This document shows positions 4,737 to 28,665 of a stretch of 64,000 nt of DNA, piece after piece. Positions within the stretch are counted from its first letter, which is position 1, and the number at the start of each line of letters is the position of its first letter. Where the stretch lies: assembly GCF_004216475.1 (NCBI RefSeq), contig NZ_CP022303.1, positions 868,001-932,000 of the forward strand, read 5' to 3'. A program made the position numbers and the translations under genes. Source of the stretch: Thalassococcus sp. S3. GTDB taxonomy: Bacteria; Pseudomonadota; Alphaproteobacteria; Rhodobacterales; Rhodobacteraceae. Below the pieces are notes generated by a model that was not told the DNA's origin, did no database searches, and worked only from the letters and a program-made list of their open reading frames with translations.

Positions 4737-5462
4737 CTAGATTTGCAGAGTGCCCACGCTGGCGCCGCCACAGACATAGAGCGTTTGGCCCGTGACAAAG
4801 CTGTTCGCCGGGTCACAGAAGAACAGAAACGCATTGGTGACGTCTTCAACCCGGCCCAAACGCCCGACGGGGATCCGGTTGGCCAGGGCCTCCTGTTCGG
4901 GGCTGTCCTTTTTAATGACGCCCCAGAAATTGTCCGTCAGAATGGGGCCCGGCGCGACGACGTTCACCGTGATGCCGTGGGGTGCCAACTCCAACGCCCA
5001 TGTCCGTGCCATGCCGATCATGCCAGCCTTTGACGCGCTATAGGCGGTCCGGGTGGGCGCCCCGAGGGCTGCGCGAGAGGCGTTGAACATGACCCGTCCC
5101 ATACCCCGCGCCTTCATCGCCGGCAAAAAGGCCTGTAACAGGATCAGGGCGGATCCAAGATGAAGCTGAGCGAGACCCGTGATGTCGGAGGGCTGAGCCT
5201 GCTCGATCAGGTTGGGCCAGATCAGGCCGGCATTGTGGATAAGGTGCGTGACATCGTGCTTGCCTGCAATCTCCGCTGCCGCGTCGGTCACGGCACCGGG
5301 ATCCAGCAAATCAGCCTCGACCGAAGACAGATTGGGATGCGAAAGCTCCGGCGCATGTCGCGAAACCGAAATCACCTTGTAATCCCGCTCGAGAAGGCGC
5401 GCCGCCAGATCAGCGCCGATGCCTTTGTTCCCCCCGGTAATCACCGCTGTCAATTCGGTCAT
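4737..5462 (-). CDS. short-chain dehydrogenase/reductase (SDR)
   Basis: 241 residues from the ATG at 5462, which overlaps the stop of the preceding cyclase gene as ATGA; the upstream 40-codon extension is rejected. Classical SDR features are all present: TGGNKGIG cofactor loop near the N-terminus, HNAG (the NNAG position), a serine in FNASRAA, and the YSASK catalytic Tyr/Lys pair. It is the last gene of the eight-gene dioxygenase operon. A NAD(P)-dependent alcohol/ketone oxidoreductase acting on a pathway intermediate is likely; the substrate cannot be read from sequence. Unlike the SDR domain of the fusion gene two positions upstream, this one has an intact active site. Confidence 0.88.
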   Translation of the reverse strand: MTELTAVITGGNKGIGADLAARLLERDYKVISVSRHAPELSHPNLSSVEADLLDPGAVTDAAAEIAGKHDVTHLIHNAGLIWPNLIEQAQPSDITGLAQLHLGSALILLQAFLPAMKARGMGRVMFNASRAALGAPTRTAYSASKAGMIGMARTWALELAPHGITVNVVAPGPILTDNFWGVIKKDSPEQEALANRIPVGRLGRVEDVTNAFLFFCDPANSFVTGQTLYVCGGASVGTLQI

Positions 5463-6238
5463 GTAACATCCTCGATCAGTGCCAGAACGCGCAAGGGGCT
5501 TCCCGTTCCATCTTTGATCTTGAGCGGCGGCGCGATCAGAACAGCACCGGTGGCTGGTAGCTGATCGAGGTTGCTCAGGCATTGCAGCCCGTAGCGGCCC
5601 GCCCCGTGCAGGAAGTAATGGGCGGGATAGGGCGGCACCATGTGACCTGCCTGACCGGCATCCGTGCCCACGGTTTCTGTCCCGAACCCCCTGATATCGC
5701 GCTCATTGATCAGAAACTGAATGGCGTCACTGCTCGGCCCGGGAGAATGCGCGCCGTCCTCTTGCAAATTCAGGTAAGCCGCACCGGATTTCTTGGACCA
5801 ATCCGTGCGCATCAGAACCCAGGCCTTGGCCGGTATCCGGCCATGCCGGGCTTCCCACGCCACGATATCTTCGACCGCCAGCAGAAAATCCGCGTTTTTC
5901 GCAGCTGGCGCGACGCAATCCAATACAACCACAGGTCCGACAAGGTCTTGAGGCGGGATCGCATCGACGGAGTTTGACGGCAAATCACGCCCCGACACCC
6001 AATGGGAAGGCGCATCAAAATGGGTGCCCGTATGCTCGGACATGGAGATATTGTGCCATTTCCACGCCGGGCCCCGGTGATCATAGGCGCTGACCTCTTC
6101 CATGCGAAAGCGGGCACATTGGCCGAACTCGGGCGGCAGAACGATGACGGGAAAGTCAGGATCCAGCGTATGGGTCAGATCCACCACGCGAACCGACCCG
6201 TTGGACAAGGCGGCCGCCATGTCGTCAAGAATGCTCAT
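5459..6238 (-). CDS. cyclase/KynB-family metal hydrolase, isatin-hydrolase-like
   Basis: 259 residues. It has the family metal motif HTGTHFDAPSHW (69-80); His69, His73 and Asp75 correspond to the Mn2+ ligands known in isatin hydrolase and kynurenine formamidase. A second conserved block, GTDAGQAG, is at about 192-199. Family members open a cyclic amide or hydrolyse formylkynurenine. With a Rieske dioxygenase, CoA ligase and 2-oxoacid oxidoreductase in the same regulon, hydrolysis of isatin to isatinate is the best guess (inference). It overlaps its neighbours by ATGA on both sides, so it is translationally coupled. A clear paralogue lies at 27869-28660. Confidence 0.85.
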   Translation of the reverse strand: MSILDDMAAALSNGSVRVVDLTHTLDPDFPVIVLPPEFGQCARFRMEEVSAYDHRGPAWKWHNISMSEHTGTHFDAPSHWVSGRDLPSNSVDAIPPQDLVGPVVVLDCVAPAAKNADFLLAVEDIVAWEARHGRIPAKAWVLMRTDWSKKSGAAYLNLQEDGAHSPGPSSDAIQFLINERDIRGFGTETVGTDAGQAGHMVPPYPAHYFLHGAGRYGLQCLSNLDQLPATGAVLIAPPLKIKDGTGSPLRVLALIEDVT

Positions 6239-7488
6239 GCGCCCTCCTCGCCATAGGTCATTTCGCGCTCAAGAACCTTGGGATCGCGCCGCAACCGGTC
6301 CCGGACGTCCTTGGCGATATCGCCGCTCCAGACATCCTCGACACCCATCTGCAAACCTTTGACAAGATCACGCGCCAGGGAGGTGGGGAGCACTTTGGGC
6401 GGGGGCAGGGGCTGAAACCAATCCTCCTCTGGCGGGCCGAGGAAGACGTTCATGACCCTAAGGCCTGACGAACGGAATTCAGCCCTTAGCGATTGAGATA
6501 GCGAATAAGCCGCAGATTGGCTGGCGGCAAAAGCGCCGTAGTCAGGTGTGTTCACCACAGCCCCGATATGCAGGATGTTGACCCAGGCCACAGCGGAATT
6601 CACCCCATCGGCGGCGCGGGCGCGCATTGCTGCGCCAAAGGCCTGCGCAAGCCGCATCAAACCCAGATAGTTGACCTCGATCTCGTCGCGCGCAAAGGCG
6701 GTATCGCCCCGCGCCAAGGCGCCGCCCGCTCGTACGAATTTCGCGTTGTTGACAAGGATGTCCGTTTTGCCCCCGATCTCAGCCGCTAGGGTCTGCACAG
6801 ACTGGGTGTCCGTCACATCCAATGGCAGAATATCGACCTCCATCTCCGTCAGGTTCTGTCGGGTGGGGTAAGGGCGCCAACTCTCCGCCTCTCCGGCGAA
6901 GATATGGCTGGCGCCGGCATCACGAAACGCCTTGGCCATCGCCGGGGCATTGGGCGCACGCGCGTCGGTGAGCAGCACGCGGCGGTATTTGGGATCAGCG
7001 GAAAGTTCGCGCATGAGGGCAGACTCCTGCATATGCGGCGTATCAACTTCGGGCACGGCGACCAAAACCCCCTGTCCGGCTCGATCCAGCCGGGCCAGCA
7101 TGCGAATATTGGACCGTGGGGCGACGTCTTCGTGAAGATGCGCCAGCACGACCGGCCCAGCAGCAAGCTCGACGCTGCCCATGCGCCACGGCAGACGTTC
7201 GCGGTAGTACAGCCTTGGTGAGGCCTGAACCGTGGTTTCCGCCAGCAGCGTGCCCTCAGTCGGGCAGTCTCTCCAGACCAGATCACTGGACAGGCAAGAT
7301 ACGCAAGCATCCCGAGGAGGGTATTGCCATGTCTGACATTCAGCGCAGCATTGCAGCGCAAATCGTCCTTCTGCCGCCGCTGCCGTCAGACCCAAAGCCG
7401 CCCGGCTGCGGAGTTCTGGTGGGCGTGTGGGAGACGTGGACCGAAGCTGCGGGTTCTTCAAGGGCGGGGGTGAGACGGGGCGGGTCAT
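6235..7488 (-). CDS. DUF35 (zinc ribbon/OB-fold) protein fused to an SDR-like domain
   Basis: 417 residues. The N-terminal part carries a zinc ribbon with C48-x2-C51 and C62-x2-C65, then an OB-fold of the DUF35 type to about residue 148. The rest is SDR-like, with LVNNAK at the NNAG position. The SDR active site looks dead: the glycine-rich loop is degraded (TDARAPNAP), and the YxxxK site reads FAASQ, with Phe for Tyr and Gln for Lys. DUF35 proteins usually partner thiolase-fold enzymes, and the next gene upstream is one, joined by an ATGA overlap. A structural or acyl-CoA-delivery subunit of an aldolase or thiolase complex is inferred. The fusion itself is unusual. Confidence 0.82.
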   Translation of the reverse strand: MTRPVSPPPLKNPQLRSTSPTRPPELRSRAALGLTAAAAEGRFALQCCAECQTWQYPPRDACVSCLSSDLVWRDCPTEGTLLAETTVQASPRLYYRERLPWRMGSVELAAGPVVLAHLHEDVAPRSNIRMLARLDRAGQGVLVAVPEVDTPHMQESALMRELSADPKYRRVLLTDARAPNAPAMAKAFRDAGASHIFAGEAESWRPYPTRQNLTEMEVDILPLDVTDTQSVQTLAAEIGGKTDILVNNAKFVRAGGALARGDTAFARDEIEVNYLGLMRLAQAFGAAMRARAADGVNSAVAWVNILHIGAVVNTPDYGAFAASQSAAYSLSQSLRAEFRSSGLRVMNVFLGPPEEDWFQPLPPPKVLPTSLARDLVKGLQMGVEDVWSGDIAKDVRDRLRRDPKVLEREMTYGEEGA

Positions 7489-8663
7489 GCACGCGCTCCG
7501 GTTTCAAGGAGCGTCGCGCTGGAACAAAGGCCGCGATCATAGTTGATCATTCCAAAGCCGGACACCAAAGCGCGCGTTGCCCCGGCAACCTGCGTGCCCT
7601 TTGCCTGTCCGGTGACTTGGCGGATAGCCTCGACCATGCCGATGTAGCCACCGGCTGCACCAGCCTGACCGGCCGAGAGCTGTCCGCCGGATGTATTATG
7701 CGGGAACGAACCTGCAATCGTCAGATCATGGGAACGGACAAAGTCAGGGCCTTCGCCCTTGGCGCAAAAGCCAAGGTCTTCGAACTGCATCATCGAAATA
7801 ACAGGATAGTCATCGTAGGTTTGAACCAGATCGACCTGATCCGGAGATAGTCCTGCCATTGCCCAAAGGGTGTCGATGTCCACGGTCCATCCCCCCCGAA
7901 GCTGGATGGGGTCGTCCCGGTGTGCATTGTGCCGCTCAATCGCGCCGCGAAGGTGCGCATATGGCAACCCGCGCCGCTTCGCCTCATCCTCGTGCATGAC
8001 CAGAAAACACTCGGCCCCGGCGCAGGGCATTACACAATCGAAGAGAGCGATGGGATCGGCGATGGCGCGCGCCTCTAGATACTGCTCAAGCGTCAGCGGC
8101 TTCTTCATCACAGCATTCGGGTTCTTCAGCGCGTTGTCCCGCTGTGCGACGCAGATCTTGCCAAAATCCTCCCGCTTTGCGCCGAAATCATGCATGTAGC
8201 GATCTGTCAGCAGCGCGAAATTCGCATTCGGTCCACCATAGCCATAGGGATAGCTGGCATCCATCGCAAAGCGAGAAAAACTGGACAGAAGCTGACGAAA
8301 ACTGTCGATCTGATTTGTGTCGCCCGCCACGCATGCCACGACGTCCACATCCTTTGCCTGAACGGCCCGGGCCGCACGGCGCACAGCAACACCAGCGGAT
8401 GCGCCACCCATCGGAATGTTGTCGAGCCATCTGGGGGACAGGCCCAGGTGCTGGGTCAAGCCAACGGCCGTGTCGGGGAACAGGGTGAAGGATGAAACAG
8501 ACAGTCCATCAAGCGCGTCTTTCTCAAGTGCCGCGGCCTTGAGCGAGCCGCGCAGGGCCTGCGCGATCCAGTAATGCGCCGTGTCGATGGAGTAGCGTTG
8601 ATAGGGCGTTGAGAAGGGCGCGGTCAGAACCACACCATCGTAGTCCGCGGGGATCTGCGTCAT
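7485..8663 (-). CDS. thiolase-fold protein lacking the Cys nucleophile (possible retro-aldolase)
   Basis: 392 residues, thiolase superfamily (SCP-x/lipid-transfer type). Conserved C-terminal signatures include CAGAECFLV and NTSGGQLSAGQAG. At the position of the acyl-accepting cysteine (CASG in thiolases) the sequence reads GGASAG (86-91), so ordinary Claisen chemistry seems excluded. Thiolase-fold proteins paired with DUF35 partners, such as Ltp2 with ChsH2 in steroid side-chain degradation, act as aldolases that release acyl-CoA from a beta-hydroxyacyl-CoA. The adjoining DUF35 fusion gene supports such a role here. ATGA overlaps link it to both neighbours. Predicted reaction: retro-aldol release of acetyl-CoA from a tertiary beta-hydroxyacyl-CoA (inference). 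Confidence 0.85.
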   Translation of the reverse strand: MTQIPADYDGVVLTAPFSTPYQRYSIDTAHYWIAQALRGSLKAAALEKDALDGLSVSSFTLFPDTAVGLTQHLGLSPRWLDNIPMGGASAGVAVRRAARAVQAKDVDVVACVAGDTNQIDSFRQLLSSFSRFAMDASYPYGYGGPNANFALLTDRYMHDFGAKREDFGKICVAQRDNALKNPNAVMKKPLTLEQYLEARAIADPIALFDCVMPCAGAECFLVMHEDEAKRRGLPYAHLRGAIERHNAHRDDPIQLRGGWTVDIDTLWAMAGLSPDQVDLVQTYDDYPVISMMQFEDLGFCAKGEGPDFVRSHDLTIAGSFPHNTSGGQLSAGQAGAAGGYIGMVEAIRQVTGQAKGTQVAGATRALVSGFGMINYDRGLCSSATLLETGARA

Positions 8664-10273
8664 GCCACCTGCCGCTTTTTCAGATGGGTCAGCCGATGCG
8701 TATCCGGCCCATCAAGCAATTCGAGCGCCAGCTCTTTCAGCGCTTTTCGCTGAATTTTGAGTGACGGCGTCAATGGCAGATCGTCCACGAATGCGATATA
8801 ACCTGGCACCTTGTAGTAGGCCATTTGCTCCAAGGCCCATCGCGCGATCTCTTCCGCCTTGTCAGCGGATGCATCGGTGGCCGACAGGCAGGCAAAGACC
8901 TCGTCTCCGCGCATATCATCCGGCACCGCTGACACTCCGGCTGCGCTGATATCGGGATGACGCATTAGCACGCTCTCGACTTCGACAGCGGCGATGTTTT
9001 CGCCTGACCGTCGAATGACGTTCTTTTTCCGGTCAACAAAGAAGAACCGGCCTTCTGCGTCCCGGCGCACGATGTCGCCGGTGTGGAACCAGCCGCCCCG
9101 CCAGGCCTCTTTGGTCGCTTCAGGGTTCTGGTCATACTCGGTGAAAAATCCAAAGCGCGGGTCGGGGCCGGAATTGCGTACAAGCAACTCTCCCGGCTGG
9201 CCCATCGGAGCCTCTCGGCCATCTTCGGATATAACCTTGGCGGTTATCCAGCCTTCCGGCTTGCCGAGGCAGGAATGACCGATCAGCCGATCCTGGGTAT
9301 GGGCGGCAATCACGGCACCCGCACCGGTTTCCGTCATCGCCCAGGCTTCGATCAGTCGAATATTGAAACGGGCTTCAAATCCGGCCTGAAGTTTCGGATC
9401 AACGCCGGCGCCAAACCCGAACCGGACGGCGTGGTTGGTATCATCCGCGCTCTCTGGACGACTCATCAGGATGGAGGGCATCACGCCAAGGTAATGCAAA
9501 CAGGTCGCTCCGCTTTCTGCCACATCGCTCCACCAAGTGCTGGGGTGGAAACGATCGAGCGCGATGAGGCAGCCGCCAACCGTCACCATCGCCATGAAGG
9601 AATAGGCCATGGCGTTCATGTGAAAGATCGGAAGTGGCGTGATCATCCGCTCCCCGTCAGAAGAGAGGCTGGCGATCCCGCCAAGCTGGGCATACCAGCG
9701 CCCCGCAAGAAGGAAGTAATCGTTTGGTAGAACGCAGCCTTTGGGATTGCCGGTTGTTCCAGAGGTGTAAAGCAAAGCCGCCTCACGGGCGCCGCCGGTA
9801 CGATCCGCCGCCATAACTGCGGCGTCACGCGGAGCAGGAAGGGGGTCGTCAGGGGCGACCACCTCCACCACGACGTCCGAGGCAATTGCGGCGGCCCGCA
9901 CATCGCGGAGACGATCCGCCAAAGCTATGATCAGGGCGGGGCGCGCATGCCCGATCAGATACTCCAGCTCCGCTGCTCGCAGATCGGGATTGACCGGAAC
10001 GATGGACGCGCCGATCTTGTTGAGCGCGGCAAAGAGCACAAAGAACTCGGGCCGATTTTCCAGCAAGACGGCCACGCGCATGCCGCTGCCATACCCCGCC
10101 TCTGTCAGCCGCGTGGCCCAGGCCTCGACCCGCGCCAGAAATGCCGCATAAGTCAGATCACCTTCTTCAATTCCATAGACTTTTGCCGTGTGAGGCATGG
10201 TCTTGAGAACCGAACGATCCGGCCAGCGATGGGCGGCACCTGAAATCGCCTCAAAGACTGTTTGCGCTGTCAT
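8660..10273 (-). CDS. acyl-/aryl-CoA ligase (ANL superfamily)
   Basis: 537 residues. It shows the AMP-binding P-loop YTSGTTGNPKG at about 170-180, the acyl-adenylate motif around WAMTETG, the hinge region GWFHTGD...DRKKN, and a C-terminal lysine in LKIQRKAL that fits the adenylation Lys. It activates a carboxylate with ATP and CoA. In the operon it follows the dioxygenase beta subunit with an ATGA overlap, so the likely substrate is the oxygenated product of the Rieske enzyme. Distinguishing an aryl-acetate from a medium-chain fatty acid substrate is not possible by eye. Confidence 0.9.
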   Translation of the reverse strand: MTAQTVFEAISGAAHRWPDRSVLKTMPHTAKVYGIEEGDLTYAAFLARVEAWATRLTEAGYGSGMRVAVLLENRPEFFVLFAALNKIGASIVPVNPDLRAAELEYLIGHARPALIIALADRLRDVRAAAIASDVVVEVVAPDDPLPAPRDAAVMAADRTGGAREAALLYTSGTTGNPKGCVLPNDYFLLAGRWYAQLGGIASLSSDGERMITPLPIFHMNAMAYSFMAMVTVGGCLIALDRFHPSTWWSDVAESGATCLHYLGVMPSILMSRPESADDTNHAVRFGFGAGVDPKLQAGFEARFNIRLIEAWAMTETGAGAVIAAHTQDRLIGHSCLGKPEGWITAKVISEDGREAPMGQPGELLVRNSGPDPRFGFFTEYDQNPEATKEAWRGGWFHTGDIVRRDAEGRFFFVDRKKNVIRRSGENIAAVEVESVLMRHPDISAAGVSAVPDDMRGDEVFACLSATDASADKAEEIARWALEQMAYYKVPGYIAFVDDLPLTPSLKIQRKALKELALELLDGPDTHRLTHLKKRQVA

Positions 10274-10749
10274 GGAAGAAGCTGGATCGACCGAAAGGCC
10301 GCGTCTGAATTCAGAAGTTCGACCTTCTTGTTGGCAATGCGCAGGGCGCCGTCGACCAGCTTCAGCTCATGCATTGCGGTCAGGGCCAGCAATTGTTGTT
10401 CGTCCAACCGCGTTTCGACGTAGTGCATCGACGTATTGGTCACGAAGCGCCCAGCCTCTGCGTCGAATTCATCGACAAACGGGCGCTGGATCACGTGATG
10501 GCATCGGCTTTTGGGTTTCTGACTAAAGGTCCGCTCACCGTTCAAACGCTCCACCCGCAGTCGCAGCATGAAGTTGTCTTCCCAGAGCAGCGATGTCTCC
10601 CCGACGGGATCGGTCTGTTTGTAGTCCAAAGGCATCCAGTAGTGCCCGTCCTCAAGCCAGAGCGCCAGCCACTCATCATAACGCCCTTCGTCCAGGATCC
10701 GCGCTTCGGCATAGACAAAGTCGATAATGTCGTCGCGTGTGATCGTCAT
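10270..10749 (-). CDS. ring-hydroxylating dioxygenase beta subunit
   Basis: 159 residues of the SnoaL-like cone fold typical of the small subunit of Rieske non-heme iron oxygenases (YAEARILDEGRYDEWLALW near the N-terminus, SMHYVETRLDEQQLLALTAM later). It is structural and helps alpha-subunit assembly. It overlaps the alpha-subunit stop (10746-10749) and the CoA ligase start, so all three are translationally coupled. Confidence 0.9.
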   Translation of the reverse strand: MTITRDDIIDFVYAEARILDEGRYDEWLALWLEDGHYWMPLDYKQTDPVGETSLLWEDNFMLRLRVERLNGERTFSQKPKSRCHHVIQRPFVDEFDAEAGRFVTNTSMHYVETRLDEQQLLALTAMHELKLVDGALRIANKKVELLNSDAAFRSIQLLP

Positions 10750-12065
10750 TCAGAGGCCCCGGCAGCGGTGCCGTTCCAATCCATGAACTTGACCCAGGCA
10801 TCGAACTGGTTGCGCATCTGGCGCTCGGTTGTGCCATTCTCGACAGCTTCTTTGCTGAAGTCTTCGCCCTCTTCATAAAGACGCTGGATGTTCACCCATT
10901 CCAGCCCGTTTGCCATCAGCCCTTCTTGCGCGCGCTCATACATCTCCATGTCATCATGTCCGACGATGGATGTGGGTGCGTTGATCATGCGGTTGTACAT
11001 CGCCGACATCTCCACCAGTCGATCCGGAGCGCCGACAAGACGGTAGACATAGCTTTCCACAAGCGTCTTATCGGGGCCCAGCGGAATGAAATTGCGCAGC
11101 TGTTGCAGCGGGCCTTTGACCATGATGTTGGGAAAATAGACCGTGTTATGGCGGTTCTCATCCAGCACCGCTTTGGCCTTCTCCTCACCATGAACGGCGG
11201 ACAAAGCTTCGAAATACCCCGGTATCGCGTCATAATCGGAGTGGATGGACATATTCACACCCGTGTGCCCGTGTCCGTTGGGCCAGGTGCGGATCCCCAT
11301 CCCTTCGAAAAAGTCATAAGACGACATGAAAGGCGCGATGATCTGCATGGCGGGCGGGCGGGGCTGAGGCTCTCCCATCTGTTTGTAGATGTCGATGGCC
11401 GTCCCCGCGGAGCTTTCGTGCGCCACCATTGGATGGCACGTATCGGTCTGGTTCTCGACCAGCATCTTCCAATTGCAATTGTGCATGTATCGCAGCGGCG
11501 GGCCCGCGATCTCCAACCTGCCTTCGGGGGACCGGTCCAGCATGTTGTCGATGGTTGATAGGCTGTCGCCGAAAAATTCTTCGAAACTGATCCCCGTCTC
11601 GGACAGCCGCGCAAAGACAAACCCGCCATAGACGCGCACATCGCCCACGGGCTTTAGCCCCTTCGCGCTTTCGGTCTGATCAAGTCCGGTGTCCGTGTAC
11701 CCCTTCTTCAACGGGATCGCGAGGAGGCAGCCATTGGTTTTGAATGACCACGCATGATAGGGGCAACGAAAGAACTTGCCGGTGTTGCCCTGCCGATCAA
11801 TCGCGATTTTCGTCCCTTTGTGCGGACAACGATTGTAGAGGACATAGATCTCACCATCGGAATGGCGCACCTGAATGACAGGCTGATCGCCGATCTGCGT
11901 GGTGATGTAGTCGCCTTTGTTGGGCGTCTGGCTATCATGACCCACAAAGATCCAGGCGTTGGTGAAAACACCGCGCATCTCGGCGACGTAAACCTCGTGG
12001 CTGGTATAGACATCTCGGTGAACCTGATGGCCATGAACCAGCTTTCGTGCATCGCTTGTTTTCAT
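10746..12065 (-). CDS. Rieske ring-hydroxylating dioxygenase alpha subunit
   Basis: 439 residues from the ATG at 12065, chosen because GAGGGGGA lies just upstream and the reductase stop is 10 bases away. The Rieske [2Fe-2S] ligands are C80, H82, C101 and H104 (CPH...CPYH). The mononuclear iron site DTCHPMVAH gives D208, H211 and H216. The enzyme adds one or two oxygen atoms to an aromatic ring with electrons from the adjacent reductase. No separate ferredoxin is encoded, which fits a two-component system in which the reductase carries its own 2Fe-2S domain. The substrate is inferred from context as an indolic or other aromatic acid. Confidence 0.95.
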   Translation of the reverse strand: MKTSDARKLVHGHQVHRDVYTSHEVYVAEMRGVFTNAWIFVGHDSQTPNKGDYITTQIGDQPVIQVRHSDGEIYVLYNRCPHKGTKIAIDRQGNTGKFFRCPYHAWSFKTNGCLLAIPLKKGYTDTGLDQTESAKGLKPVGDVRVYGGFVFARLSETGISFEEFFGDSLSTIDNMLDRSPEGRLEIAGPPLRYMHNCNWKMLVENQTDTCHPMVAHESSAGTAIDIYKQMGEPQPRPPAMQIIAPFMSSYDFFEGMGIRTWPNGHGHTGVNMSIHSDYDAIPGYFEALSAVHGEEKAKAVLDENRHNTVYFPNIMVKGPLQQLRNFIPLGPDKTLVESYVYRLVGAPDRLVEMSAMYNRMINAPTSIVGHDDMEMYERAQEGLMANGLEWVNIQRLYEEGEDFSKEAVENGTTERQMRNQFDAWVKFMDWNGTAAGASE

Positions 12066-12075
12066 TCCGTCCCCC

Positions 12076-13011: not shown

Positions 13012-13031
13012 CTTCGTGTCTCCCACAAGAA

Positions 13032-13047
13032 ACATGAAATTTCATAT
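13032..13047. promoter_or_regulatory. MarR-type operator, site 1 (reductase operon / marR)
   Basis: It contains the perfect palindrome ATGAAATTTCAT (13034-13045) in the divergent promoter between the reductase operon and the MarR gene. On the minus strand TTGACA (13059-13054) followed after 17 bases by CATGTT could be the -35/-10 pair, which puts the palindrome inside the spacer. The same 16 bases recur at 16444-16459. Confidence 0.8.
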
Positions 13048-13093
13048 ACTTTCTGTCAAGGCGCTATTTTAAGGTCCAAGCAGAGTTGGAACC

Positions 13094-13537: not shown

Positions 13538-13544
13538 CGCACCG

Positions 13545-14858
13545 CTACATCTGCGCAGGCAGAAACAAGACCAGGCCCGGCAGCAGCAACAGAAGCACCA
13601 GCCTGAGGATATCCATGATCCAAAATGGTGTGACCCCTTTGAAGATCGTACCGGTAGAGACATCCTGAACGATCCCTTTCAGAACAAAGACATTCAGGCC
13701 AACCGGTGGCGTGATGAGGCTGATCTCGACGACGACCACAACGACAATGCCAAACCAGATCGGATCAAAGCCAAGTTCTTGCACCACGGGAAAGAAGATC
13801 GGCACGGTCAGGAGAAGCATCGAGAGGCTTTCGAAGACGCAGCCCAGCACAATATAGATCCCCAGGATCATCAGCATAACCGTCCAGGGGCTTAGGTCAA
13901 AAGCGGTCACGAGGTTCAAAAGCGCCTGAGGAAGGCCAGCGACATTCACGAAATTCGAGAAAATCCAGGCGCCGATCAGCACGGCAAAGAGGGTCGCCGT
14001 CGTGATCGCGCTTTCGCGCAGCACGTCTATCGTATCGGCCAATGACAGACGGCGGCGCGAAAGCGCGATCAGGAATGCGCCCATTGCCCCCATGCCCGCG
14101 GCCTCGGTTGGGGAGAAAGCGATATTGAGCGGCTCAAAGTCAAAAAGCCCATAGAGCCCGCCAATCACCAGAAAGAACAGCAGCAAAACCGCCCAGACCT
14201 GACCCAGGGCCGCTCGCCGTTCTGGCCAAGCGGTCTTGGGTCCTTTGGGGCCCGCATCCGGATCACGCCAGACCGTGAACCGGACAGCCGCCAGATAGAA
14301 CAGGATGCCCAGAAGCCCGGGGATCACGCCCGCGATGAATAGCTTTCCAATCGACGTCCCGGTCAGCAAACCGTAGATCACCAGGATGACAGACGGCGGG
14401 ATCAGAATGCCCAAGGTACCGCCCGCCGCGATCGACGCTGTGGCGAGCTTGTCGGAGTATCGGAACCGACGCATTTCGGGCATCGCAACCTTCGACATGG
14501 TGGCCGCCGTGGCCAGAGATGACCCAGAAATCGCCGCGAACCCGCCACAGGCCACAATCGTGGCCATCGCCAATCCACCCTTCAGATGGCCAAGAAAGGC
14601 GTTCGATGCCGTGTAAAGCTCTTTGCTGATGCCCGCCTTGTTGACGAAGAGACCCATCAGGATGAAGAGAGGCACAACAGACAGCCCGTAGTTCTGGCTG
14701 GTATCAATGATCAGCCTCGCCACCATGGAAATGGCGCCGCGGTAGCTGCTTTCCATCATAAACCCGACGAAGCCGACAAGGCCCATGGCAAAGGAAATCG
14801 GCATACGCAGCAGGACCAGCACGATCACAGCGGCAAACCCGATGATGCCTTCGATCAT
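13545..14858 (-). CDS. dctM: TRAP transporter large permease, DctM type
   Basis: 437 residues, almost entirely hydrophobic with about 12 membrane segments. It has the DctM hallmarks of a glycine-rich FAAISGSSLATAATM and GGTLGILIPPS. It forms the ion-coupled channel that takes substrate from the periplasmic binding protein. It is the last gene of the dctP-dctQ-dctM unit and overlaps dctQ by ATGA. The operator upstream of dctP suggests it imports the substrate of the neighbouring catabolic operon. Confidence 0.93.
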   Translation of the reverse strand: MIEGIIGFAAVIVLVLLRMPISFAMGLVGFVGFMMESSYRGAISMVARLIIDTSQNYGLSVVPLFILMGLFVNKAGISKELYTASNAFLGHLKGGLAMATIVACGGFAAISGSSLATAATMSKVAMPEMRRFRYSDKLATASIAAGGTLGILIPPSVILVIYGLLTGTSIGKLFIAGVIPGLLGILFYLAAVRFTVWRDPDAGPKGPKTAWPERRAALGQVWAVLLLFFLVIGGLYGLFDFEPLNIAFSPTEAAGMGAMGAFLIALSRRRLSLADTIDVLRESAITTATLFAVLIGAWIFSNFVNVAGLPQALLNLVTAFDLSPWTVMLMILGIYIVLGCVFESLSMLLLTVPIFFPVVQELGFDPIWFGIVVVVVVEISLITPPVGLNVFVLKGIVQDVSTGTIFKGVTPFWIMDILRLVLLLLLPGLVLFLPAQM

Positions 14859-15355
14859 GTCAGGGCCTCAAGCTTGTGCGGAGCCAACGCCAGCAAGGCG
14901 GCGCGGACCAGCAGAACGATCCCGGTCAATGCGGTCATCGCTGCGATGAACCAGCCGATATAATGCAGCCCGATCCCAAGGTATTCCATCACATCGCCAT
15001 ATGACCTGCTGCGCTCGGCCAGGACCCAGATGCGCTGGGCGGGCCAGAACAGCAGAGCCCCACAGATAAATGAGATAATGGCATCCGAAATCCTGATGAG
15101 ATTGAACCGGTGAAACAGCGGATCCAGCAGATCCACGCTGATCTGTCGCCCTGCCAAGGACAAACTGGGCATGACCGAAAAGACCGTTATGGCCATTAAA
15201 ACACGTGTCATGTCAGCGGTGAACTGAAAGGGTGCGTTAAAGATCGACCGAAGCATCACGTCGGTGAACGTCAGCAACATGAGGCTAAACAGGGCCAAGG
15301 CTGCCACCAGCTCTGGCATCTTCATAAGGTGTCTTAGCACTGCGGGCAGCCTCAT
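14855..15355 (-). CDS. dctQ: TRAP transporter small permease, DctQ type
   Basis: 166 residues from the ATG at 15355. The frame is open six codons further to a GTG, but that codon lies inside a strong hairpin. Four membrane segments are visible, with the family-typical TFTDVMLRSIFNAPF after the first. DctQ bridges the binding protein and DctM. Another ATG at 15325 is possible. Confidence 0.85.
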   Translation of the reverse strand: MRLPAVLRHLMKMPELVAALALFSLMLLTFTDVMLRSIFNAPFQFTADMTRVLMAITVFSVMPSLSLAGRQISVDLLDPLFHRFNLIRISDAIISFICGALLFWPAQRIWVLAERSRSYGDVMEYLGIGLHYIGWFIAAMTALTGIVLLVRAALLALAPHKLEALT

Positions 15356-15364
15356 TTGAAAGAG

Positions 15365-15386
15365 CCGTGGCACCTTGGCGCCACGG
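15365..15386 (-). terminator. intercistronic stem-loop between dctP and dctQ
   Basis: On the minus strand CCGTGGCGCC-AA-GGTGCCACGG can pair over ten positions (one G-U) and is followed by CTCTTTC. It lies 8 bases past the dctP stop. Such hairpins often lower permease expression relative to the abundant binding protein by partial termination or by mRNA stabilisation. Confidence 0.55.
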
Positions 15387-15394
15387 TGCGCGTG

Positions 15395-16414
15395 TTATTC
15401 GGCGCTGACAGCCGCCATTTCATCGACCATCATCTGATAGGCTGCATCCGCGTCAACGCCAGCTTCGATGAGTTCCTCCAGGACCCTCACCCGAATTTCA
15501 GCGGTCGTTTCCGCAAAGCTGGCCTGATCTTCGGCAGACGCGACAACGGTCGTTGCGTCATCTCCCATCGCCTCGCGCGCCAATTCATCCGACAAATCCC
15601 AGGCCGCTCCGGCCATGCGGCTGAGGGGTTCTCCGAAGACCTCGGCATCAAGCTTTGTCTGAATGTCTTCCGGCAGGTCCGCGAATGTCTCTTCACTCAT
15701 GATGAGCGCGAAGGAGCCGCGATAAAAACCCCCGGGCATTTCAAAGAGATTGGGGGCCACTTCATCCAGACGAAATCCGATGCGCTCTCCAACATTCATC
15801 GCCACCGCATCAGCCGCCCCGGATTCGAGCGTCTCGTAGACTTGGGGCGCGGGAACGTTGATGCCGACCAAGCCGATGAGACCGCCAACGTCCCCGGCAA
15901 CACCGCCACCGATCCGCGTCTTCAAGCCGTCCAGATCGGCCAAGGTGGACACGTCAGAACCGGTATGGATTTGCCCAGGCCCATGCGTGTTCAGCGCGAT
16001 CACCTTCACGCCCCGATGCTCATCCATGGCGGCAAGGTGTTCTTCAAAAACACGCCAATAGGCGACCGACGACGCCTCGGCGCTGCCTTCGTACCCGGGA
16101 AGCTCGGGCAATTGCGTCGCGACGTAGCGGCCAGGCTGGTATCCGTGGAAGATGATCGCGATGTCCGCAGCGCCATCGAGGATCAGGTCGGATTGCGCCG
16201 GGGGTGGCGCGAGACCGGACACCAATTCTCCGGTTACCCTGCCATCTGTCGCGGCCTCGATCATTTCGATCATGCCGCCAAAGATCTCTGTGTTCACGCC
16301 ATGTGTTGGCGGCAGCCACGTGGACACCCGAAGCGTGGTATCTTGCGCTAAGGCAGCTGTTGCCATCCCCAGACCAACAACACTGGCCGCAACAAATTTA
16401 CCGATCCCCGTCAT
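15395..16414 (-). CDS. dctP: TRAP transporter substrate-binding protein, DctP type
   Basis: 339 residues with a Sec signal peptide (MTGIGKFVAASVVGLGMATAALA, cleavage near residue 23). The mature part has DctP-family features: LRVSTWLPP near the start and the GLKTRIGGGVAGDVGG region. It captures an organic acid in the periplasm. It is the first gene of the TRAP operon; the MarR-type palindrome lies 31 bases before its start. Ligand by context: an aromatic acid feeding the dioxygenase pathway (inference). Confidence 0.92.
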   Translation of the reverse strand: MTGIGKFVAASVVGLGMATAALAQDTTLRVSTWLPPTHGVNTEIFGGMIEMIEAATDGRVTGELVSGLAPPPAQSDLILDGAADIAIIFHGYQPGRYVATQLPELPGYEGSAEASSVAYWRVFEEHLAAMDEHRGVKVIALNTHGPGQIHTGSDVSTLADLDGLKTRIGGGVAGDVGGLIGLVGINVPAPQVYETLESGAADAVAMNVGERIGFRLDEVAPNLFEMPGGFYRGSFALIMSEETFADLPEDIQTKLDAEVFGEPLSRMAGAAWDLSDELAREAMGDDATTVVASAEDQASFAETTAEIRVRVLEELIEAGVDADAAYQMMVDEMAAVSAE

Positions 16415-16443
16415 TCTTATCTCCCGTTTTCATTCTTAACTAT

Positions 16444-16459
16444 ACATGAAATTTCATAT
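16444..16459. promoter_or_regulatory. MarR-type operator, site 2 (TRAP operon)
   Basis: The perfect palindrome ATGAAATTTCAT (16446-16457), with identical flanks to site 1 over 16 bases (ACATGAAATTTCATAT), sits directly upstream of dctP. A TTG-rich -35-like element (TTGTTGCAA on the minus strand) lies on its far side. Confidence 0.8.
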
Positions 16460-16782
16460 GTTTTTGCAACAAAAATCAATAGTAATTGTTGGGCCGAAGG
16501 CGCAGGGCCTTCACCGGCTGCATCTCCGATTGAAGGGGTGGGATCTGGTTTGCAGTGTCTGATTTTGGATGGGTGTACCCGCCCAGATCTCTGAATTTAT
16601 TGAGCTTTTTACCCTTCTCCGACCGGGAGGTTCGGTTGTCACCAGATCGCGCCAGGGGCCGTCCCGACGTGTCACGAGCACGCGGAGCGCTTCTTTTGGT
16701 CGAGCCCTCGACACTGGCCAAAACTCGTTGCAAAATGAAATGAATGGCCCTGATCGACAGGTGCCTCCTGCACAAAGGAAGA
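16460..16782. other. intergenic region between TRAP operon and thioesterase
   Basis: About 320 bases with no convincing gene. It contains a 6-base inverted repeat (GAAGGC...GCCTTC, 16496-16512). The promoter of the thioesterase gene should lie here; no copy of the MarR palindrome was found close to that gene. Confidence 0.45.
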
Positions 16783-17217
16783 GTGTTGGACAAGATTTTC
16801 AGAACAGATCGCACCCTGCGTTTTGGCGATTGCGACATCTCGGGGACGGCTTACTTTCCCTCTTATCTCGACATCTTGAATGGTGTGAACGAAGAGTTCT
16901 GGTCAGAGCTTGGTTTTCCCTGGAACAAAACCATCTGGGAAGAACGCTGGGGCACACCAACAGTGCATCTGTCCTGCGATTTTTCCAAGCCGTCCTTCTT
17001 TGGGGAGACTCTGTCTTTTGATGTGGGGGTCACCAAAGTGGGGCGTTCGTCAGTCACCATGCGCCACAAAATCAGCTCCGGTGCGGAAACCCGCTGGACC
17101 AGCACCCAAGTTCTTGCGGCGAGTGATCTGGATAAACATACCTCAATCCCCTGGCCGGAACCTGTCGTCATCGCGCTCAACAAGGTTCTGGCCACAGAGG
17201 AGGAGCTTGGCTTCTAG
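16783..17217 (+). CDS. 4-hydroxybenzoyl-CoA-thioesterase-type hotdog enzyme
   Basis: 144 residues from the GTG at 16783, chosen because AAAGGAA precedes it and the length matches the family; an in-frame ATG at 16744 would add 13 residues. The signature RFGDCDISGTAYFPSYLD (compare R-x-G-D-x-D-x-x-G in 4HBT proteins) supplies the catalytic Asp and the Tyr/Phe-rich loop. Family members hydrolyse aryl- or acyl-CoA. It converges with iorB, with only 9 bases between. If iorAB makes an aryl-CoA, this enzyme could release the free acid, for example anthranilate from 2-aminobenzoyl-CoA (inference). Confidence 0.85.
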   Translation: MLDKIFRTDRTLRFGDCDISGTAYFPSYLDILNGVNEEFWSELGFPWNKTIWEERWGTPTVHLSCDFSKPSFFGETLSFDVGVTKVGRSSVTMRHKISSGAETRWTSTQVLAASDLDKHTSIPWPEPVVIALNKVLATEEELGF

Positions 17218-17226
17218 CCCATAGGG

Positions 17227-18756
17227 TCAAGAACTAGCAAAGGACTTGACCGTCATGATGGCACCGTCCAGCGCGTCGCCCTTTTCGTCTTGCAACCCGG
17301 CCTCGCGCAGGCGCGCCAGCCAGTCCGCACCATCATCGCGTGTCCTGAGAACCGGTACCATCGAGATAACCCGCCCAAATTTGGAATGTCCCCGGGCGTG
17401 TGTGTCCGAATACCCCTTGATCAGGCGTTGGCAGGCCAGCACCTCAACTGCCATATCATAGCTGTCGGGCAGGACATCCAAAGACAGGCGCATCAAGTCC
17501 GTAAGGTGCGCGGTTTCCACACGATGCCTCAGCAAGCGGCGGCGATAGGGCCGGACCATGCTCACCAGCCAAAGCATGCCAAACCCGCGGATCGTATCCG
17601 TACGAATGCGCCGGCCCTTGTTGATCAGCCGATCAAGTAGCTTGAACAGTTTGGGTCGCGCCTCGATGGCCGCGCCGAGGCGCGCTGGCAGGGTGCCACA
17701 CACCTCGGCCGCGCGCGGGTGAAAATACTCAGTGACATGGGCAATCTCATCGGCCTTGATTTGCTGTTCTCCACGCAGCCGCACGTCCCGGCTTTGACGC
17801 ACCTTCAAATCGGCCACGCGCGGCAGATCATCGTAACACATGGCGTTGGCCACGTATTTTGCCGCATTGATCGTGAGCTTTTTCGCCTCGACCGTGTCGT
17901 GATCGGCAAAGGTCTGGACGTGGTCCAGGTACTCTGTCCCATAGGCGATGTCTTGATAATCGACGGTTTTTTTCAAACCGGCCATCAACATCTCTTGGGC
18001 GGGTGCCGGAAATGTCTTGGCGCGTGTGACTAGCGCATCCCATTCGCGCATCAGCTTCGCCGGGCCTTTGGCTTTGATCGCCTTCCGTGCAGGCTCCTCT
18101 GGCGCGACGGCTTCATAGTTCAAAGCGCCGCGAAAGGCCGCAAGGCTTTGGTAAACGCCCCGGCCAGAGGCCTTGATGACCTCTTCAAACTCTTCCGGCG
18201 CGAAGGGCAGGGCGCCACTGCGCGCCAAGCCGCCAAAAAGGCTCGCGGAGATCATGGTGCCTGCCTCTGCCGCGATTTTCTCCATGTCAAAACAGATCGT
18301 GCGCAGCGCAGCCTTGGTGATCTCATCTGTGACAAGCGCGGAATCCGCCCGTCCGTCGCCCGGTTCCTCTTTCTCAGACACGGCCAGCACCCGATGGGTT
18401 GAGGCGATCAAAGTCGTGCGATCCGGGGTCACGAACCCGCGTAGCACTGCGCGACCAGCCTCCATCAATTCGGCGGCGATCAGTACGTCGAGATCACCTT
18501 GCGATGGGCTGAGCGCAAATACGGGCGACCGGCCCGTCTTTGGCGCCATCTCGACATAATAGATCGTGGCCCCGGTGCGCTGGGCAACGCCCGCGACAGA
18601 GGTCATCTGCACATCGTATCTGCATCGCGTGGCCAGGTCGGCAATCCAGTTGGTCAGCACCCCGCCACCCTGACCGCCCACCGCCAGCACCGCCAGCTTG
18701 ATAATCGTTTCGTCAATTGCGTCGGCTTGCGTGGGCTGAGCGCGGGCGAGGTTCAT
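17227..18756 (-). CDS. iorB: indolepyruvate-oxidoreductase beta-type subunit with long C-terminal extension
   Basis: 509 residues. The N-terminal domain (about 20-215) is the gamma-type domain of 2-oxoacid:ferredoxin oxidoreductases (VGGQGGGVLTNWIADLA). The remaining 290 residues form a helical extension (DUF6537-like by memory of the family), so the protein is more than twice the length of archaeal IorB. It overlaps iorA by ATGA. Together they oxidatively decarboxylate an aryl 2-oxoacid to the aryl-CoA. Classical substrate: indolepyruvate; in this context isatinate (2-aminophenylglyoxylate) is an attractive alternative. Confidence 0.87.
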   Translation of the reverse strand: MNLARAQPTQADAIDETIIKLAVLAVGGQGGGVLTNWIADLATRCRYDVQMTSVAGVAQRTGATIYYVEMAPKTGRSPVFALSPSQGDLDVLIAAELMEAGRAVLRGFVTPDRTTLIASTHRVLAVSEKEEPGDGRADSALVTDEITKAALRTICFDMEKIAAEAGTMISASLFGGLARSGALPFAPEEFEEVIKASGRGVYQSLAAFRGALNYEAVAPEEPARKAIKAKGPAKLMREWDALVTRAKTFPAPAQEMLMAGLKKTVDYQDIAYGTEYLDHVQTFADHDTVEAKKLTINAAKYVANAMCYDDLPRVADLKVRQSRDVRLRGEQQIKADEIAHVTEYFHPRAAEVCGTLPARLGAAIEARPKLFKLLDRLINKGRRIRTDTIRGFGMLWLVSMVRPYRRRLLRHRVETAHLTDLMRLSLDVLPDSYDMAVEVLACQRLIKGYSDTHARGHSKFGRVISMVPVLRTRDDGADWLARLREAGLQDEKGDALDGAIMTVKSFASS

Positions 18757-20909
18757 GGCGCGGTCTCTTCAAAGCGCAGGGTGCGCGCATCACGGCGGCA
18801 CTGCAGGGTGGTGATGACCTTTCGCCGCAGCTTGTCCCAAATGCGATCCGCGCGCGTCGGGTTCACGATAAGATCGGCCTGATAAAACGACGGGCAGAGC
18901 ACCGCGGCATCCGCAACTTCGCCGCAATTTCCGCAGCCGACACAGTTTTGGTCAATGCTGGCGACAGGATCATCGCGCAGGGGATCGTCCAGCGTCTTGA
19001 GGGAGAGGGACGGACATCCCGACAAACGGATACAAGCGTGGTCGCCCGTGCACACGTCCTCATCCACGCCAAAACGGCTGCGCACGACGCGTTTGCCATC
19101 CTTGATCGCCTTGGTGCGCGCAGGTTTTTCCCGGCGCTGTTTGTTCAGCATGCATTCCGACGATGCGATGATGACTTTCGGGCCTGTTTCCGGGGTCTCC
19201 AGAGCCTCTTTCAACGTGGCCTGCATCAGACCCACGTCATAAGTGCGATCAATCTGGCGGACCCATTTGGCCCCCATTCCTTCGACAGCGTCTTTGATCG
19301 GGTGATTGGTGGACTTCGTCTTGTTCTTTGCACGCGACGACAGAATGTCCTGCCCGCCTGTGGCGGCAGAATAGTAGTTGTCCACAATCACGATCACACC
19401 GTCATTGTCGTTGAACACCGCATTGCCGATAGAAGAGGTGAGGCCGTTGTGCCAAAACCCGCCATCCCCCAGGAATGAAATGGAGCGTCGCTTGGCGGTT
19501 TTGTCGTTGAACGCCGAAGCAGAGGCCGGCCCGAGCCCGTAGCCCATCGTCGTCGCCCCAAGGTTGAAGGGCGCGTTGATCGAAAAGAGGTGACACCCGA
19601 TGTCACTTGCGATGTGGTGTTCGCCAAGTTCCTGCTCGACCAGTTTGGTGGCGGCAAAGATAGGGCGTTCGGGGCATCCGATGCAAAAGCTGGGCGGGCG
19701 TCCTGGTACGGTTTTGCCCAGATCCGGTATGGGTACATATTCGGGTTTGTTAGGCGCGCGCGCGACAGGCGGCATCAGGTCGGCTGCATGCTCGGTCAGG
19801 AAGGTGGTCAACCCATCCAACATAACCTGACCCGTCAATTCGCCCGCTTCCGGGAACGGCCCTTTTCCCGAGATCTGGGTGGCCAGGTTCGCCTTGTGAA
19901 ACGCCGCCCGGACCTCTTGTTCGATATAATCGGGATGTCCCTCTTCTATGATCAGGAGGCTGTCTTTGCCCTTGGCAAAGTCTTGCAGCTCATCTGTCAC
20001 AAGGGGGTATGTGACATTCAGCACGTGAACCGGCACTTCTGTGTCGCCATGGATATTGGCGAGGCCGAGGCGCTGGAGCCCGCGAATGACACTGTTGTAA
20101 AGACCACCCTGACAGATGATCCCGACCCGTCCGTCTTGGGGTCCGAAGGTCTCGTTCAGCTTGTGATCCCGGATGTACTGCCGCGCGGCAGGAAGCCGTT
20201 TCGTGACCTTTTCCTGTTCATGCAAAAAGGAGGCAGGGGGCAGAACGATCCGGTTGAGATCGCGCTTTGGCGCCTCCAACGCGTCTTTGACCGTCACGGC
20301 GGGGCGCTGGTTGTCCTCCGCCGTAAACTCCCCCAGAAGGTGGCAGGATCTTATCCGCAATTGCAGCATGACGGGGCTGTTGGATGCTTCGGAGAGGCCA
20401 AAACCATCACCCACGGCCTTGACGATCGAGGGCAGGTTCGGTCTGGGGTCCAACAGCCAGATCTGGCTTTTCATCGCGAAGGCGTGGCTGCGCTCCTGCA
20501 TGATCGAAGACCCTTCGCCGTAGTCTTCGCCAAGGATCACAAGCGCGCCGCCTGTAACACCGCCAGATGCCAGATTGGCCAGGGCATCCGATGCCACGTT
20601 GGTGCCAACCGTGGATTTGAACGTGACCGCCCCACGGATGGGATAATGCACCGAAGCCGCGAGGGTTGCCGCAGCCGTCGCCTCGGAGGCGCTGGCCTCG
20701 AAATGCACGCCCATCTCGCTCAGAATATCCTGTGCGTCGGCCAGAACGTCCATCAAATGGCTGATCGGTGAGCCCTGATATCCGCCGACATACCCGACGC
20801 CATTTTCCAAAAGCGCCTTGGTAACGGCCAGAATACCTTCGCCGCGAAAGGTCTCTCCCGCACCCATTCGAAGCTTTTGCACTTCTTTCGCGAATGACCG
20901 CTCAGCCAT
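18753..20909 (-). CDS. iorA: indolepyruvate ferredoxin oxidoreductase alpha-type subunit
   Basis: 718 residues from the ATG at 20909, preceded by AGGAAGG; the frame extends upstream through the operator and that start is rejected. The N-terminal pyrimidine-binding domain is followed by the TPP pyrophosphate-binding domain (IGCHLFSINAP..., then SFLGDGGFWHNG giving GDG). The C-terminal ferredoxin-like part has cysteines in CTGDHACIRLSGCPS and CVGCGNC for 4Fe-4S clusters. It catalyses CoA- and TPP-dependent oxidative decarboxylation of aryl 2-oxoacids. It is the first gene of the iorAB unit, which has a MarR-type palindrome in its promoter. Confidence 0.92.
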   Translation of the reverse strand: MAERSFAKEVQKLRMGAGETFRGEGILAVTKALLENGVGYVGGYQGSPISHLMDVLADAQDILSEMGVHFEASASEATAAATLAASVHYPIRGAVTFKSTVGTNVASDALANLASGGVTGGALVILGEDYGEGSSIMQERSHAFAMKSQIWLLDPRPNLPSIVKAVGDGFGLSEASNSPVMLQLRIRSCHLLGEFTAEDNQRPAVTVKDALEAPKRDLNRIVLPPASFLHEQEKVTKRLPAARQYIRDHKLNETFGPQDGRVGIICQGGLYNSVIRGLQRLGLANIHGDTEVPVHVLNVTYPLVTDELQDFAKGKDSLLIIEEGHPDYIEQEVRAAFHKANLATQISGKGPFPEAGELTGQVMLDGLTTFLTEHAADLMPPVARAPNKPEYVPIPDLGKTVPGRPPSFCIGCPERPIFAATKLVEQELGEHHIASDIGCHLFSINAPFNLGATTMGYGLGPASASAFNDKTAKRRSISFLGDGGFWHNGLTSSIGNAVFNDNDGVIVIVDNYYSAATGGQDILSSRAKNKTKSTNHPIKDAVEGMGAKWVRQIDRTYDVGLMQATLKEALETPETGPKVIIASSECMLNKQRREKPARTKAIKDGKRVVRSRFGVDEDVCTGDHACIRLSGCPSLSLKTLDDPLRDDPVASIDQNCVGCGNCGEVADAAVLCPSFYQADLIVNPTRADRIWDKLRRKVITTLQCRRDARTLRFEETAP

Positions 20910-20926
20910 GATCCTTCCTCTCCCAT

Positions 20927-20946
20927 TTATATGAATTTTCATATAA
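20927..20946. promoter_or_regulatory. MarR-type operator, site 3 (iorAB)
   Basis: TTATATGAA-TT-TTCATATAA has perfect 9-base arms and the same ATGAA-N2-TTCAT geometry as sites 1 and 2. It lies 18 bases before the iorA start. On the minus strand TTGCGA followed after 17 bases by CATATA could be the promoter that spans it. Confidence 0.75.
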
Positions 20947-24583: not shown

Positions 24584-24604
24584 CTAAAGCGTGTCTTTCG
24601 AAAG

Positions 24605-24632: not shown

Positions 24633-24643
24633 GTTCGCCTGTT

Positions 24644-28660: not shown

Positions 28661-28665
28661 TCATC

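Follow-up and report, generated by a model that had tools for sequence, protein, structure and literature searches.

The window studied here, a stretch of 64,000 nucleotides from the alphaproteobacterium Thalassococcus sp. S3 (NZ_CP022303.1, positions 868,001 to 932,000), carries a locus for the degradation of indole-3-acetate (IAA). The locus itself is of a known kind, the iad type, whose pathway has already been published (Conway 2022; Jiang 2025, a preprint). We consider it likely that this locus is joined in the window to a second, IAA-independent isatin module, that one iorAB gene pair is common to both, and that the pathway and its control by the regulator IadR are as proposed below. With distinctly less assurance, we lean towards the view that IorAB (IadAB in iad nomenclature) is a dedicated isatinate oxidoreductase, the hub of the auxin route and of a route formed by a type B isatin hydrolase (IH-B), two flavoproteins and an Opp transporter; its coenzyme A (CoA) ester would go straight to a monooxygenase, with anthranilate as a side product.

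In the proposed scheme, IadCDE and IadJ would convert IAA to dioxindole-3-acetate, as reported for Variovorax, and IadF would form the CoA ester. IadG, together with the DUF35 part of IadH, would split this ester by retro-aldol cleavage into isatin and acetyl-CoA, and IadI, or IH-B in the second module, would open isatin to isatinate, a reaction shown for their orthologues. IorAB would then oxidatively decarboxylate isatinate, an arylglyoxylate, to 2-aminobenzoyl-CoA. This product would enter the 2-aminobenzoyl-CoA monooxygenase/reductase pathway, whose genes lie in another part of the genome; some strains would instead release anthranilate by means of a 4HBT-type thioesterase. IadR, bound at palindromes, would repress iadC-J, the transporter genes next to them and iorAB until IAA is present, as can be expected from Variovorax IadR.

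Isatinate is 2-aminophenylglyoxylate, and its oxidative decarboxylation with CoA gives 2-aminobenzoyl-CoA. Phenylglyoxylate and indolepyruvate oxidoreductases perform such thiamine diphosphate (ThDP)- and CoA-dependent oxidations of aryl 2-oxo acids. IorAB differs from them in its proposed substrate, and IorA scores 281.1 bits against IOR_alpha (TIGR03336), under the equivalog cut-off of 650.9.

Auxin degradation by iad bacteria shapes root growth, yet the part of the literature covered assigns no enzyme to the step from isatinate to anthranilate. If our proposal is true, the iad pathway gains its last step and iadA/iadB gain a function, the energy cost of activating anthranilate is saved, and engineered auxin-degrading strains that omit iadAB are predicted to leak isatinate.

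IorAB and isatin hydrolases occur together

From the window's family we took 248 genomes, each of a different genus, and searched them for IorA, the oxygenase subunit IadD, the thioesterase, isatin hydrolase and 2-aminobenzoyl-CoA monooxygenase/reductase (ACMR). The first pass was loose and, for two proteins, at most four candidates per genome were scored; a few absences may be false. IorA is found at 64% identity or more in 52 of the 248 genomes. Isatin hydrolase, of either type, is present in 50 genomes, all among these 52, and in none of the 196 others (p = 1.5e-50, with no correction for kinship). Of the two genomes that have IorA alone, G595 has a contig that stops inside the module, just before the place expected for IH-B (L208). 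Ten further genomes, kept apart, hold only an IorA paralogue at 51-54% identity (seven) or a weak match (three), and none has isatin hydrolase.

IadD occurs in 22 genomes, again all within the 52, and isatin hydrolase is found in 28 of the 30 IorA genomes that do not have IadD. In 35 genomes, 27 of which do not have IadD, no more than 5 kb separates IorA from isatin hydrolase; their joint transfer could make the co-occurrence look stronger than it is. Six genomes (G476, G579, G319, G631, G638 and G649) possess only the hydrolase of the iad operon, yet carry IorA, and in four of these IorA is unlinked: G579, G319 and G631 have it on a different contig, and in G638 the distance exceeds 2 Mb. All 49 searchable iad-positive genomes, drawn from 50 loci chosen among the best 80 IadD relatives, have IorA. 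In a quick tree, where 21 of 68 inner branches remain open, iad-linked and IH-B-linked IorA copies are intermixed, which suggests that linkage of IorA with these modules arose repeatedly.

We examined 20 kb around iorA at two sets of 20 loci, one from the 49 iad-positive genomes, mostly at a distance from the iad genes, the other from the 40 genomes that match IorA but do not have IadD. In 18 loci of the first set, a second isatin-hydrolase-like cyclase is encoded no more than about 3 kb from iorA; in the second set, 17 loci show such a cyclase, and two of the three exceptions carry a 51% IorA paralogue. The order is recurrent, with the opp transporter and a flavoprotein on one side, followed by the cyclase, a flavoprotein, a MarR gene, iorA and iorB. 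In Roseibium aggregatum IAM 12614 (G402), IadI of the iad operon (L017) matches the solved isatin hydrolase 5NNB at every one of 257 residues, and the cyclase encoded beside iorA (L146) does so with 4J0N at every one of 263. Both solved R. aggregatum isatin hydrolases thus sit in contexts served by IorAB.

Within the window's family, this co-occurrence and adjacency, the R. aggregatum contexts included, argue strongly that IorAB oxidises isatinate to 2-aminobenzoyl-CoA, as the initial annotation of the sequence had suggested. The substrate appears well tied to isatinate only inside this family; other members of the IorAB protein family probably have different 2-oxo acids as substrates. At three loci (L212 in G774, L213 in G745 and L167 in G665), an IorAB at 66-72% identity stands beside a TRAP transporter without isatin hydrolase, and probably uses another 2-oxo acid. 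We set aside the 'iad' cluster of Pseudomonas LY1 as evidence on IorAB, the letters there naming an iac-type set.

The initial annotation regarded this role of IorAB as new. In the literature covered, which leaves most subscription papers outside, we found no assignment of IorAB to isatinate, or of 2-aminobenzoyl-CoA to isatin. Conway 2022, in the part covered, names iadA/iadB as exclusive markers of iad-like loci. The passages covered of published iad descriptions assign no reaction to the two genes, and they go unmentioned in the main text of Jiang 2025 (PMC12633357), as far as covered.

Layout of the two modules

Features of the window are as follows (SDR, short-chain dehydrogenase/reductase; PDR, phthalate dioxygenase reductase; TRAP, tripartite ATP-independent periplasmic; ABC, ATP-binding cassette; ORF, open reading frame).

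4737..5462, minus strand: iadJ, SDR dehydrogenase (start set at MTELTAV, 4 bp overlap with iadI)
5459..6238, minus strand: iadI, predicted isatin hydrolase, A type (467 bits to isatin hydrolase A, 5NNB; PF04199 cyclase)
6235..7488, minus strand: iadH, DUF35 (ChsH2-like) domain fused to a degenerate SDR domain (zf-ChsH2, OB_ChsH2_C)
7485..8663, minus strand: iadG, thiolase-fold retro-aldolase candidate (nearest solved structures, YDDY motif)
8660..10273, minus strand: iadF, acyl-CoA ligase, predicted to form the CoA ester of dioxindole-3-acetate (AMP-binding domain)
10270..10749, minus strand: iadE, Rieske oxygenase beta subunit (Pfam and position)
10746..12065, minus strand: iadD, Rieske oxygenase alpha subunit (536 bits to Variovorax IadD, 9O71; next family 141 bits)
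12076..13011, minus strand: iadC, PDR-type reductase (FAD_binding_6, NAD_binding_1, C-terminal Fer2; ORF opens at 13035)
13031..13048, no strand: palindrome before iadC, predicted, probable IadR operator of iadC-J
13094..13537, plus strand: iadR, predicted MarR-type IAA-responsive repressor (181 bits to 3CDH, 78 bits to Variovorax 7KFO)
13545..16414, minus strand: dctMQP, TRAP transporter (DctP/Q/M by domain scan), probably for IAA uptake
16443..16460, no strand: palindrome before dctP (pattern search)
16744..17217, plus strand: 4HBT-type acyl-CoA thioesterase, candidate 2-aminobenzoyl-CoA thioesterase (Pfam; weak relatives include 4-hydroxybenzoyl-CoA thioesterases)
17227..18756, minus strand: iorB = iadB (POR and DUF6537; NF006179 at 650.7 bits, cut-off 348)
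18753..20909, minus strand: iorA = iadA, large subunit of the proposed CoA-acylating isatinate oxidoreductase (Pfam TPP_enzyme_C)
20928..20945, no strand: palindrome before iorA (pattern search)
21078..26254, minus strand: opp, oligopeptide-type ABC transporter of the second isatin module (three ORFs scanned)
26188..27747, minus strand: FAD1, CrtO/CrtI-like flavoprotein (domain/profile scan)
27869..28660, plus strand: IH-B, predicted second isatin hydrolase, B type (537 bits to isatin hydrolase B, 4J0N)
28525..30228, plus strand: FAD2, CrtO/CrtI-like flavoprotein (true start probably near 28670)
30225..30701, plus strand: marR2, MarR regulator of the second module (domain scan)

The region 4737-13537 is an iad-type locus whose genes, iadC-D-E-F-G-H-I-J together with iadR, follow the order known from publications. 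The genes iadC-J form a tight minus-strand operon running from 13011 down to 4737, with the MarR gene divergent; the TRAP transporter follows, then the thioesterase and iorB-iorA (= iadBA). Start codons at 13011 for iadC and 20909 for iorA appear likelier than the longer ORF openings, judging from relatives and operator positions. Of 536 IadD relatives in named genomes, we used the best 80, 57 of which have full 10 kb flanks; all eight iadC-J genes are present in 43 of these 57 loci, and a dctP relative at 50% identity or more in 26. Among the named organisms listed, the nearest to the window's IadD are alphaproteobacteria such as Jannaschia, Roseibium, Ruegeria and Sulfitobacter. In a phylum-level relative (L190), iadR, iorA, iorB and iadC-J are consecutive in one row.

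Like published iad loci, the window holds orthologues of iadC-J in identical order, including the Rieske pair IadD/IadE, together with iorAB = iadAB and a MarR regulator that shares the Ser and Arg of the IAA site. It differs from them in that iorAB stands in its own operator-controlled unit, in the 4HBT thioesterase and in the adjoining second isatin module. TRAP genes lie beside the operon here, whereas Variovorax names an ABC binding protein, IadK2.

Domain scans found every element that the initial annotation had named: the Rieske pair, the PDR reductase, the ligase, the thiolase-fold protein, the DUF35 fusion, the cyclase, the SDR, iorAB and the 4HBT protein. Its interval, 4737 to 20946, covers the iad locus and iorAB and stops short of the second module (21078-30701), on whose near side iorBA lie. 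The oxygenase matches Variovorax IadD far better than it does the next family. The intermediates that it proposed from IAA to anthranilate fit, and they match the published iad pathway, which it did not name. It had the oxygenase make dioxindole-3-acetate and gave the SDR no role. In Jiang 2025, as far as covered, IadCDE is a monooxygenase and the dehydrogenase IadJ performs the final part, turning a hydrated IAA epoxide into dioxindole-3-acetate. The nucleotide-binding TGxxxGxG and catalytic YxxxK motifs of IadJ are intact in 68 of 68 aligned sequences.

Its recognition of the cyclase as isatin-hydrolase-like agrees with our comparison. IadI and IH-B are close homologues of the assayed R. aggregatum (Labrenzia) isatin hydrolases A and B, and the residues of the metal motif HxGTHxDxPxH are kept in 62 of 62 aligned IadI sequences; both proteins are predicted to share this activity. 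Unlike R. aggregatum, the window holds both modules within 26 kb. Where iorAB loci of other genomes include oppA, its identity is 65-86%, and a marR2 relative at 50% identity or more is present in 32 of 38 IH-B/iorA loci. On this comparison the second module is a predicted isatin route independent of IAA, found in many genera of the family that have no IAA genes.

A kynureninase-like pyridoxal phosphate (PLP) enzyme lies near the IH-B/iorAB module at three loci (L146, L148 and L150; by Pfam for L150, the others having the same cluster), and in L146 and L150 an ORF of 369-374 residues, a cupin in L150, adjoins its gene.

IadG resembles an aldolase rather than a thiolase

The closest solved relatives of IadG are the retro-aldolases CtSal (9MYR, 167 bits) and Ltp2 (6OK1, 136 bits), with thiolase 4U4E close behind (133 bits). 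As in the steroid side-chain retro-aldolases CtSal/Shy and Ltp2/ChsH2, a thiolase fold is paired with a DUF35 partner, here IadH, and a YDxx catalytic Tyr and a Sal-like Gln pair are found. The initial annotation had seen that the Cys nucleophile of thiolases is missing: the position holds Ser89 in the window and, among 61 aligned sequences including it, Ser in 58, Ala in one and Cys in two (L030, L075). Where the YDCY/YDHF motif sits, all 61 read YDDY, so that Asp replaces the second catalytic Cys at the XDCX position; five further copies (57-77% identity) agree at these motifs. We therefore rejected IadG as a ketothiolase, the XDCX Cys being lost in 61 of 61 and the nucleophile kept in only two.

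Tyr is the catalytic base in both known aldolases, Sal and Ltp2 (PMC12329534, covered in part). The equivalent Tyr283 is invariant in IadG (61/61), while the acid residue, Cys304 in Sal and Tyr344 in Ltp2, is replaced, IadG having Asp285 and Gln333 throughout (61/61). IadG thus looks like a retro-aldolase, as initially proposed, and, since the base is kept and the acid differs, is predicted to act as a variant of the Sal/Ltp2 type.

The DUF35 domain of IadH is fused to an SDR domain, not to a hydratase as in the steroid systems. Its Zn-ribbon Cys residues are kept in 61 of 61 sequences. In the SDR part the Rossmann Gly motif is unrecognisable and the catalytic Lys absent in all 61, and Tyr320 of YxxxK is kept in six; two of five further copies keep the Lys but have Phe for Tyr. 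This domain looks dead, and IadH as an alcohol dehydrogenase was rejected on these counts. Jiang 2025, as far as covered, describes IadF as a CoA synthase, assigns side-chain removal to IadG/H by annotation and places IadI after a compound C8H7NO2. With neither a recognisable nucleotide motif nor the catalytic Lys, reductive removal of the side chain by IadH, as annotated in print, seems unlikely here; C8H7NO2 could in that case be a reduction product of isatin made elsewhere.

A palindrome precedes three transcription units

The initial annotation noted one palindrome common to these units. The pattern TATATGAAATTTCATATA, with at most three mismatches, occurs at three sites in the window, before iadC, dctP and iorA, against none in 100 shuffles. 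The host genome (5.0 Mb in four contigs; G000) contains only these three sites, and the pattern read backwards has none. With up to five mismatches, the palindrome precedes iadC in 59 of 74 loci (shuffles 0.7%) and dctP in 31 of 46 (shuffles 1.1%). Equivalents of Ser28 and Arg46 of IadR, residues with reported roles in IAA binding by MarR proteins (PMC9613470, covered in part), are found in 51 of 51 aligned sequences, and 3CDH, from R. pomeroyi, served as a template among IAA regulators (PMC11630574).

Control of iorAB by IAA looks direct in the window, while other genomes seem to control iorAB differently. Where iorA has its own MarR gene (marR2) nearby, the palindrome is absent as a rule, as in three iad-positive genomes without IH-B beside iorA (L143, L205, L206). 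Sites noticed after the fact are a four-mismatch palindrome before the unlinked iorA of the iad-positive genomes G631 and G638, and weaker six-mismatch sites at the iad-positive loci L136 and L193; L214, whose iad status is not established, has another of the weaker kind.

Probable fate of the CoA ester

Outside the window, the host genome encodes a two-domain flavoprotein above the NF006101 cut-off (1294 against 1078 bits), named salicylyl-CoA 5-hydroxylase by NCBI. We take the NF006101 family to include ACMR. The gene adjoins, as read by eye, those of a CoA ligase and a Liv-type transporter. ACMR is found in 48 of the 52 genomes with IorA, against 38 of the 196 others (p = 8e-23), within 20 kb of iorA in eight genomes. 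The 4HBT thioesterase is present in 13 of the 52 and in one of the 196 (a match 75% complete), lying within 20 kb of iorA in eight genomes and within 1 kb in four. Among IorA genomes its presence is independent of IadD (6/22 versus 7/30, p = 0.76), and we rejected it as a core IAA gene. From these counts, the thioesterase appears to go with IorAB, and direct use of the CoA ester to be the commoner arrangement: 2-aminobenzoyl-CoA probably enters the monooxygenase directly, with the thioesterase accessory. A different 4HBT-like thioesterase stands right beside iorB at L136 (6246-6665, seen by eye) and at L207 (near 5302, 31% identical to the window's). The pairing may recur with other thioesterases.

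Weighing the alternatives

Several observations weigh against IorAB as a shared, dedicated isatinate oxidoreductase. IorA and IH-B mostly stand side by side and could be transferred jointly, and G665 has a genuine IorA in a TRAP context without isatin hydrolase. In a class-level sample of 147 genomes, only two of the four with IorA at 64% or more (the window's own included) have isatin hydrolase, as does one of 13 with IorA at 52-62%; isatin hydrolase at 48% or more occurs in three genomes, all with some IorA, and two matches at 36-37% occur without IorA. The palindrome, at up to five mismatches, precedes iorA in just 7 of 71 loci (shuffles 0.2%), by context 3 of 18 iad-adjacent and 2 of 38 IH-B loci, L075 counting in both groups. 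The ACMR substrate may be salicylyl- or 2-aminobenzoyl-CoA, and 38 genomes hold ACMR without this IorA. Finally, according to the covered part of Jiang 2025, the nine-gene set iadCDEFGHIJK2, which excludes iadA/iadB, restores anthranilate formation, with strong accumulation of C8H7NO3 and C7H7NO. An alternative to IorAB therefore exists, at least under overexpression, and Variovorax does not strictly depend on IorAB to form anthranilate. By mass, we read the two compounds as isatinate and 2-aminobenzaldehyde.

These masses favour a route with 2-aminobenzaldehyde as intermediate, formed from isatinate by non-oxidative (or chemical) decarboxylation and then oxidised to anthranilate, with IorAB as a side enzyme. 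The strong build-up is reported, in the part covered, only for the overexpression strain, and it also fits a missing IorAB; moreover, no other ThDP decarboxylase was recognised among the conserved neighbours examined, no dedicated search having been made. We regard this route as quite improbable. The initial annotation had IorAB make 2-aminobenzoyl-CoA and the thioesterase then free anthranilate as the main product. The enrichment and proximity of the thioesterase speak for this, as does anthranilate being the product reported in Variovorax and Bradyrhizobium (sources covered in part). Thirty-nine of the 52 IorA genomes have no 4HBT thioesterase, however, ACMR is far more widespread among them, and an ACMR candidate is present in the host genome of the window too, so we consider it unlikely.

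A third possibility is that IorAB is true to its name, converting indolepyruvate from tryptophan to indoleacetyl-CoA, from which the thioesterase would release IAA to feed the iad genes. The conversion of indolepyruvate to IAA is classical chemistry, the family name and homology to IOR_alpha point this way, and the thioesterase adjoins iorB in the window. The IOR_alpha score nevertheless falls far under the cut-off, and isatin hydrolase accompanies IorA even in genomes without IadD. No aromatic aminotransferase was recognised among the conserved neighbour clusters, only some of which are annotated, one being the kynureninase-like enzyme. That job could fall to two long frames located elsewhere in the host genome, which share 26-27% identity with IorA and are probably of the fused IOR type; they give no hint of their substrate. 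Expression in Bradyrhizobium japonicum follows IAA, the product, which induces iotA 30.7-fold and iorB 7.6-fold (PMC3788728, covered in part). We hold this possibility to be very doubtful and retain IorAB as the likely isatinate oxidoreductase.

Neighbouring genes

Next to the second module, at 30923-35172, lie CT_A_B, CT_C_D and LamB/YcsF genes, a set similar to that of the 5-oxoprolinase PxpABC. Directly downstream of iadJ, on the opposite strand, 2271-4253 encodes a 660-residue protein with many GGxGxDxLxGG-like repeats (repeats-in-toxin type by eye). An ORF of 584 residues at 219-1973 matches a LuxR-type helix-turn-helix and an alpha/beta hydrolase, both under the Pfam cut-off.

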